From positions 1 through 59,435 of the forward strand of contig CAMDGU010000012.1 of NCBI GenBank assembly GCA_945897885.1: a DNA stretch of 59,435 nucleotides, written 5' to 3'. Source of the stretch: Chitinophaga pinensis (GTDB lineage: Bacteria; Bacteroidota; Bacteroidia; NS11-12g; UBA9320). Made by a program: the position numbers and the translations under genes. Below the pieces are notes generated by a model. The model did not search any database. It saw nothing but the letters and a program-made list of their open reading frames with translations, and was not told the DNA's origin. The first letter of the stretch is position 1, and every line of letters begins with the position of its first letter. This document shows, piece after piece, positions 35,729-37,789 of this stretch.

Positions 35729-35818
35729 TTAACAGTCAAAAGCAGTGTTGAACTAAGGCGCATTGGATGCATGGGCAGAAAAGTTGCTTTTAACCTTAAG
35801 CTAGTTGATTTGTTTTTC

Positions 35819-36400
35819 TTATTCAGGTATGGTCTCTCTTGGTGGAATAAATTTAATATCGAAGCCAACCTTCCATTCAACTTTTGATGGGTCATATGGT
35901 ATATTTTTAATTTTTGCTGTCACAACAAATTGCTCTTCTTCTGTCCAGTTCCGAATCACATATCTTCCTATTTTTTTGATTTTAAAATAATCTACAATTA
36001 TTTTAAATCCTCTATTCTGAATTGTGTCGCCTGGTGATGAAATTGATGAACTAACATAACATCCTCGAAACATATTATCTGGTATGTTATTCGATAAAAA
36101 GGCTTGTAAATCTTTAATTTTTATTTCAGTCAAACTTTTCGGTGCTAAAAATAGTCTTGGGGGTTTGTTAAAGTCTACTCCTGTTCCGCAATAATAGTAA
36201 ACGTATTTGTTGTGATAAAATATTTTGGAGGTGTCAATCAAAATGAAATTATGATTTCCATAATATATTGATGGAGGAGAAGGTAGTTTGGGGTTCCTAT
36301 TTACATTTTTTATTACATAATAAATAAATTTATTGTCGTCTTGTTTTGTGTTACAAGAAAACTGTATTAGGGTAATTAGTATAATAAAAATCTTGTGCAA
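35819..36400 (-). CDS. Lipoprotein of unknown function
   Basis: 193 residues from a TTG at 36400; the upstream in-frame codons reach a stop after four codons and no ATG precedes the signal. Lipoprotein signal HKIFIILITLIQFSC, Cys16. The mature part is Tyr/Lys/Ile rich (KFIYYVIKNVNRNPKLP, GFKIIVDYFKIKKIGRYVIR). No family recognised. The gene starts 21 bp after the outer core of the attC-like element and is in the same orientation as the acyltransferase, as expected for consecutive cassettes. Confidence 0.65.
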   Translation of the reverse strand: MHKIFIILITLIQFSCNTKQDDNKFIYYVIKNVNRNPKLPSPPSIYYGNHNFILIDTSKIFYHNKYVYYYCGTGVDFNKPPRLFLAPKSLTEIKIKDLQAFLSNNIPDNMFRGCYVSSSISSPGDTIQNRGFKIIVDYFKIKKIGRYVIRNWTEEEQFVVTAKIKNIPYDPSKVEWKVGFDIKFIPPRETIPE

Positions 36401-36420
36401 AGGGTTTTCTTAGAACGGTA

Positions 36421-36552
36421 TATAACGGTTTGCAGCTACAAGAAGTTGGCGATTTCGAAGCACAAAACTGTCTGCCACCACTAAACTTGATACGAAGCAC
36501 AAAGCTTCATTTAACCACTGAACCGCCAATTTCTTGTAGGTGCTGTTATGCG
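36421..36552 (-). repeat. attC-like imperfect inverted repeat
   Basis: Read on the minus strand: GCATAAC (36546-36551 region), arm 36524-36545, a ~72-base middle, arm 36433-36451, and CCGTTATA (36421-36428). The arms CAGCTACAAGAAGTTGGCG and CGCCAATTTCTTGTAGGTGC(TG) pair almost fully, with three extra bases in one arm. The middle contains GAAGCACAAA twice and a small hairpin GAAGCACAAAGCTTC (36494-36508). The layout (core, arm, variable centre, arm, core) with extra-helical bases is that of an integron attC site, and the acyltransferase stop codon lies inside one core. Confidence 0.55.
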
Positions 36553-37637
36553 TTCGTGCTTTTTTCAAGTCTACTTATTATTCTTTTACCTATCTCTTGA
36601 AATGGAACTTCTATTGTCTTGTAAAGTATGCTTGACACAAAAATAGTAAAAACAGAAACGATAGAAAATCGTGCAATATAATTTAATGTTCCATTGTCTA
36701 AATAGTCGATAAAATTTAACCGTGTTAGCCAATGTAAGACAGCAAAATGTACTAAATACATACTAAAACTAATTTTGCCAATGTAGTTTATAATTGGATT
36801 TACAATAACTATAAATCGAAAAGTGCTAAGAGCATATCCCAATAGTAAAAATCCGATGCTAAAAAGAATATGATTTGGAAAAACGAATTGAATTCCTGTC
36901 CCTAATTGAGCAAGTAATAGTCCGCTAAATACTAAAATTGATTTCCCGGAAATGTTTCTCATACTTTCATTCTCTATGACTAAAAAATATAACAATATTC
37001 CCAAACAAAAAACAGGTAATTGACTAGGGAAATATAAAAACAGGTAATTACTCCATAAGCTATTATCACTAATTAGTTGAAATTTCATAAAAAACAATTG
37101 AAGTAAAAATTTTACGAGTGTACTATAAATAAATAAATTAAAGGCTTGATTTAAATTTTTCACTCTTGAAAATAAAAGTGGTAAGACAGCATAAAACGTC
37201 ATTTCAACTGCAATTGACCAGCCTCCAGGAACTAAGCTTGTTATCCAATACGGATTAAAACCGTGTAAGAATGTAAAATTGGAAATAATGTTTAGAACAG
37301 TAATATGTGTTTCGTCACCAAGCCAATATCTTGCTCCTAAACCGTCTTGAAATAAATAATAGCAAATGCCTATATAATACATTGGGGCAATTCTAAAAAA
37401 TCTTCTCAGGAAAAAATTACGAATTGGGGATTTTTCTCTTGTTAACCTGTTTTTAAAAGAAAGGAATAAAGTAAATGCACTTGCAAGATAGAATAATTGA
37501 ACACCTCTAGCCCCCTCCCCAATTATATTGGCAATTATTTTAGGCACATTAAAATGTCCGTATTGACATGTATGTACCATTATTACACCTAAAATTGCTA
37601 ATCCTCTTAATGCATCAATATAGTCTAATTTTTTCAT
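36546..37637 (-). CDS. Acyltransferase family 3 membrane protein (OafA-like)
   Basis: 363 residues with about ten membrane helices, of the acyltransferase-3 family that acetylates surface polysaccharides or other extracytoplasmic sugars. The N-terminus has the family motif YIDALRGLAILGVIMVHTCQ with the catalytic-type His, followed by FFLRRFFRIAPMYYIG (conserved Arg pair). No SGNH domain is fused, so this is the membrane part alone. The gene is reverse and its TAA stop forms part of the core of the attC-like repeat. TTAGCGGTAA and GTTATGCG occur on the minus strand before its start (37672-37688). Confidence 0.85.
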   Translation of the reverse strand: MKKLDYIDALRGLAILGVIMVHTCQYGHFNVPKIIANIIGEGARGVQLFYLASAFTLFLSFKNRLTREKSPIRNFFLRRFFRIAPMYYIGICYYLFQDGLGARYWLGDETHITVLNIISNFTFLHGFNPYWITSLVPGGWSIAVEMTFYAVLPLLFSRVKNLNQAFNLFIYSTLVKFLLQLFFMKFQLISDNSLWSNYLFLYFPSQLPVFCLGILLYFLVIENESMRNISGKSILVFSGLLLAQLGTGIQFVFPNHILFSIGFLLLGYALSTFRFIVIVNPIINYIGKISFSMYLVHFAVLHWLTRLNFIDYLDNGTLNYIARFSIVSVFTIFVSSILYKTIEVPFQEIGKRIISRLEKSTNA

Positions 37638-37757
37638 TGTCTTTTTACGTTGTGTTAGTTTTTAGCATGACGCATAACTTACCGCTAAGCGAAACAAAAC
37701 TAATCAAAATATTGGCTGGAGATAAATTTAGATTTTAACTCCTTGTAAAATTCCCCC

Positions 37758-37789
37758 TTTGGGCATTAAGCACCATTCCGTTATCTTTG
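37758..37789 (+). promoter_or_regulatory. Promoter of mtaB, start codon 6 nt after -7 box
   Basis: TTTG (37758-37761), 20-bp spacer, TATCTTTG (37782-37789); the ATG is at 37796. Both boxes match the consensus. A transcript starting about 6-7 bases after the -7 box would begin at or next to the ATG. Confidence 0.75.

Follow-up and report, generated by a model that had tools for sequence, protein, structure and literature searches.

An integron-like gene cassette with a folded attC-like site in a Bacteroidota genome and the XerA-like recombinase family associated with such sites

A Solitary Gene Cassette at a Secondary Chromosomal Site

The stretch analyzed here, referred to as the window, comprises 59,435 nucleotides of a genome assembly assigned to Chitinophaga pinensis (Bacteroidota; contig CAMDGU010000012.1). 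It holds an acyltransferase gene and a folded attC-like site, which together form a complete gene cassette within an insert between two conserved chromosomal genes. The features of the insert are:

35729-37780, minus strand: whole insert, 2.05 kb, absent from three close relatives (G003, G004, and G005); the flanking genes are ~50 bp apart in G004
35819-36400, minus strand: following gene, 193 aa, without a Pfam match and without an attC after it
36421-36428, minus strand: right core CCGTTATA (R'); its TTATA is assigned to the next unit, as conservation among copies stops at CGTT
36424-36553, minus strand: attC-like recombination site, about 130 nt; covariance-model match with E 2.1e-22 (the model includes the window sequence), fold z-scores below
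36426-37677, minus strand: complete gene cassette, bounded by the TT of its left core and the G of its right core; start and end are complementary over 9 bp, and the same boundary rule holds in relatives
36432-36454, minus strand: right hairpin arm (inverted repeat I1)
36521-36543, minus strand: left hairpin arm (inverted repeat I1)
36545-36553, minus strand: R'' core ACGCATAAC, the bases directly before the hairpin
36546-37637, minus strand: acyltransferase gene (PF01757, Pfam E 2.5e-28), stop codon within R''
37670-37678, minus strand: left core GTTATGCGT, at which the cassette starts and which serves as R' in the circle; identical to the reverse complement of 36545-36553

All elements on which the original prediction was based, i.e., the minus-strand cores, the open reading frame, its stop in GCATAAC, the arms, and the start of the next open reading frame at 36400, are present in the sequence. 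On the minus strand, GTTATGCG is read at 37678-37671, and the acyltransferase reading frame (37637-36546) terminates with a TAA inside GCATAAC at 36551-36545. The hairpin arms are 23 nt long and 87% complementary; they flank a spacer as described, albeit one of 66 nt and not ~72 nt. An ortholog of the acyltransferase was not found in 57 relatives, where the best identity was 33%. The sole match in an Rfam scan of the region, mir-73, lies below its cut-off and is meaningless.

The window unit is solitary, and the second gene (35819-36400) lacks an attC; this gene is possibly a cassette whose site was lost. As originally noted, the window contains no tyrosine recombinase reading frame. The cassette occupies a secondary chromosomal site separate from the integrase gene. 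In this respect it resembles CALIN and other lone cassettes at secondary sites, which it differs from in its attC type and in belonging with an integrase from a new family.

Matching Cassette Ends and Transfer as a Unit

The two ends of the window cassette, GTTATGCGT and ACGCATAAC, are exact reverse complements over 9 bp. Such complementarity is a prediction of an integron cassette circle, because both stretches become neighbors in the circular form and pair. The same relationship is seen among further copies of the element. Within each copy, conservation ends at CGTT and the following bases vary among copies, but these bases are the reverse complement of those before the next copy (GTTACCAGC/GCTGGTAAC, GTTGGGTGC/GCACCCAAC, and GTTAGTAGCC/GGCTACTAAC). 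When 65 adjacent pairs were picked by similarity alone, 34 had a cassette-end match of at least 9 bp, compared with 0.38% of random pairings, and the same test recovered linked cassettes in a class 1 integron. About half of the adjacent pairs have no 9-bp match; in some of these an element between the two was missed, while others look degenerate. Cassettes have a median size of 864 bp, with the largest at about 10.5 kb, and among 100 cassettes that have an ORF of at least 80 aa, the longest reading frame points along the array in 97.

Movement of a cassette can be followed between two genomes. In G006 (L059) the cassette lies after attI, and the same cassette lies after another attC in G419 (L260). 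The two are ~90% identical through gene and attC and diverge at GTT on both sides, i.e., the transfer occurred as a precise unit with breakpoints at GTT. One cassette body (L260, reverse complement of 1628-2906, and L075, 9027-10309) is 97% identical in two families, and identity ends just past R''. This body has a 127-nt attC in one family and a 73-nt attC in the other, an attC swap that is unexplained by simple recombination or cassette exchange at R'.

Distribution of the Site

DNA similarity searches found the element six times in the genome of the window and in 33 of 58 relatives, one of which has 16 copies within 44 kb in a single orientation. This recurrence shows that the element is not a product of chance. 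The original proposal of an integron-like cassette, perhaps as a distinct Bacteroidota element, is supported, as the same site lies beside many unrelated genes and is not tied to one acyltransferase. With 31 divergent copies, including the window sequence, as the basis of a covariance model, matches were obtained for 213 of the 295 genomes sampled from the class (about 70%; taken as Bacteroidia from the named Bacteroidota relatives) and for 123 of 155 genera, but for none of 11 genomes outside the phylum. Plasmid-borne members occur in Chryseobacterium and Flagellimonas.

The cores had been described as fitting GTTRRRY only in part, and across the family the canonical attC core fits only 5 of 108 cassettes. 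Some cores at L165 (7824-10317) and L173 (6347-9131) read GTTGCCAAC or its complement GTTGGCAAC, so that R' and R'' are similar whichever way they are read. In a Rufibacter array next to an I2-less integrase (L175, 11874-17474), the sites are much shorter, with ~62 nt between cores; the cassettes otherwise match.

Integrase Genes, attI-Like Sites, and Arrays

Tyrosine recombinases are found at the start of arrays. A tyrosine integrase, suggested as a feature to look for nearby, is encoded elsewhere in the same genome (G000:C78), on a contig that ends ...GGGTATAAGCAAGTT, exactly at the attI-like core. Past the integrase stop codon lies a conserved stretch with AGTT at its end (TATAAACAAGTT in several loci). 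In eight loci, the first cassette starts at an attI-like GTT core located 73-159 bp past the integrase stop, and the first 9 bp of this cassette complement R'' of the first attC. Chains of two to nine linked cassettes extend downstream of the integrase, among others in the cultured genera Winogradskyella, Algibacter, Seonamhaeicola, Arundinibacter, Flavobacterium, and Algoriphagus. In a minority of loci, mostly with integrases without the N-terminal extension, the array is upstream and divergent. Several contigs of metagenome-assembled genomes (e.g., L101, 1-20) break off within an array or at, or close to, the attI core, so that short-read assembly is likely to fragment these systems.

A XerA-Like Integrase Outside the IntI Clade

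The catalytic residues R, K, H-x-x-R, H, and Y are invariant or nearly invariant columns in the alignment of the integrases (A1). The predicted integrase structure (pLDDT 82) is closest to XerA (4a8e, Z 22.6), followed by IntI4 (2a3v, Z 18.1), and the XerA model NF040815 is matched with 230 bits, above its cut-off. From the catalytic-lysine region to H-x-x-R, nearly all new integrases measured have 58-59 residues, compared with 100 residues in canonical IntI and 65-66 in Xer. Hence, the IntI-specific insertion (I2) is missing from the new integrases. Canonical IntI proteins form a single clade (100/100), outside of which the new integrases fall, and the integrase of L059 scores 206 bits against the TIGR02249 cut-off of 265. 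The system works like an integron, yet its integrase is not a member of IntI by clade, by I2, or by cut-off. This distinction from canonical IntI goes beyond the original prediction.

Many members possess an N-terminal domain of about 80 residues, which some array-bearing members lack. Its top Foldseek match is 4o66 with an E of 0.43, and no match reaches a Z of at least 5. A motif suggested HARP (SMARCAL1) or DUF5710 as the identity of this domain, but fold comparison did not support either. At L179, L184, L185, and L195, related integrases lie in very long open frames of >600 aa, recombinase included.

One genome, G062, encodes both a canonical IntI and an I2-less integrase. Four consecutive sites, 3.7 kb from intI, have the wrong orientation and no attI match, and an assignment of these sites to the canonical IntI was rejected; the I2-less integrase has a site about 1.2 kb downstream.

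Cargo

Some cassettes contain whole anti-phage systems. A complete Shango operon (SngA, SngB, and SngC) is present in a single 5.9-kb cassette with matching ends of 10 bp (L059, 3633-9426; G006:C12). A type III restriction-modification system and a short Argonaute-SIR2 pair form a 9-kb unit between two attC sites with matching 9-bp ends (L056, 137-9015; G039:C3). The anti-phage cargo and the occurrence on plasmids suggest that the system is a likely route of gene flow in the phylum. On a Flagellimonas plasmid (NZ_CP092416.1; L206, 5900-7930), cassettes with a RibD_C/DHFR-like gene and erm(F) lie beside a divergent I2-less integrase.

Fold and Strand of the Site

The original prediction had been made dependent beforehand on a single-strand hairpin. 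The site folds, and the fold has conserved, strand-asymmetric irregularities. For the window site, the fold of the bottom strand has a z-score of -3.09 and that of the top strand -1.95. When 108 cassettes are folded as the circular form, 101 of them have the more stable fold in the bottom strand, by a mean of 4.1 kcal/mol. In the displayed examples, an end stem of 9-10 bp is followed by a one-sided bulge of 4 nt; a few pairs then lead to a 1x1 mismatch and on to a long stem. Of the 13 arm pairs compared across 31 divergent bottom strands, 12 carry compensatory changes, and at one pair 29 of the 31 strands have G.T, where the opposite strand has A.C. These features fit the folded bottom strand as the presumed form of recognition, as in integrons; the strand preference is a prediction from folding, and the way in which cassettes were linked into chains favors sites with good arms.

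Proposed Mechanism and Alternatives

Having observed the anatomy, the end match, precise transfer units, the integrase link, and a strand-biased covarying fold, we consider it very probable that the window contains one captured cassette of a Bacteroidota integron-like system with a XerA-like recombinase, an attI-like site, and an attC folded as a single strand. In this system, the XerA-like tyrosine recombinase would cut the GTT core between G and TT. Circular cassettes would be inserted at the attI-like site beside the integrase gene or at the cores of resident cassettes, and this reaction would be performed by the integrase described here. Recognition of the cassette site would require it to be single-stranded and folded, with the bottom (non-coding) strand as the most likely substrate. 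In the predicted fold, the cassette ends would pair as a stem of 9-10 bp, and the adjacent 4-nt bulge, the 1x1 mismatch, and the G.T pair would mark the strand.

Alternatively, directly repeated GTT cores might recombine as double strands, as in Xer recombination, and the hairpin would serve otherwise, e.g., in transcription termination. XerA proteins, the closest solved relatives of the integrase, act on double strands. However, a duplex site does not call for an R'' that is complementary to the opposite end of the same cassette, and it does not call for compensatory changes in a stem or for a G.T pair specific to one strand; we regard this alternative as unlikely.

It is considerably less probable that a canonical IntI acts in trans on what are ordinary integron cassettes, with the adjacent XerA-like recombinases as passengers. 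Canonical IntI exceeds the cut-off in 93 of 345 genomes from other classes of the phylum, and the attC sites of canonical IntI also have paired ends (control L207). On the other hand, no canonical IntI above the cut-off is found in the 58 relatives, although 33 of them carry sites, and it is the new integrase that lies at the array start with attI. Furthermore, the sites track the new integrase and not IntI: among 18 genomes of the phylum, all having canonical IntI, presence of the new attC type is associated with that of the new integrase (6/7 vs. 1/11; Fisher p 0.0025). Spread of a MITE, REP, or IS200-like palindrome by a transposase, with its position after genes due to chance, would account for a short palindrome in many intergenic places but is the least plausible origin, being already contradicted by the cassette-by-cassette end match and further opposed by single-orientation arrays, by movement of whole gene and site as a unit, and by the fixed start beside the integrase.

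Relation to Known Integrons and Implications

The integron-like system proposed here shares with integrons of canonical IntI (class 1, the Vibrio superintegron, and Salinibacter) an attI, arrays in one direction, R''/R' pairing in the circle, a GTT core, a bottom-strand bias, and the C-terminal SPLDxL motif of the integrase. In contrast, the new integrase lies outside the IntI clade and has no I2 insertion, and its cores are mostly not GTTRRRY. While canonical sites have an unpaired spacer and extrahelical bases, the new sites have a 4-nt one-sided bulge and a G.T pair. The new integrase and its array mostly run in the same direction, and cassettes reach up to about 10 kb. XerA (NF040815; PDB 4a8e and 5hxy) is closest in both sequence and fold. 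Known XerA uses a single chromosomal dif site, whereas the new system comprises an attI and arrays of attC sites, and its integrase frequently has an additional N-terminal domain.

Integrons are held to originate from a Xer-like enzyme that gained the I2 helix, and I2 is held to be required for cassette capture (PMC7790495). Direct proof of this link is missing since deletion of I2 kills IntI1 (PMC7790495). IntegronFinder requires an IntI domain (PMC9668308), and its version 2.0 reported Salinibacter as a new complete integron in Bacteroidetes proper, where earlier only In0 was found (PMC9024848). The family described here breaks the expectations stated in these three papers. A literature search, whose scope excluded preprints and most subscription journals, found no prior description of this integrase/attC family.

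Integron-type capture through folded single strands probably works without the I2 helix, as either an older state or an independent origin, and this system is probably the main integron of the Bacteroidia, missed by finders that rely on the IntI domain. With sites in about 70% of the sampled genomes of the class, the census of integrons differs from the earlier picture (PMC9024848). Moreover, a natural I2-less family with full integron anatomy makes the question of whether I2 is essential testable.
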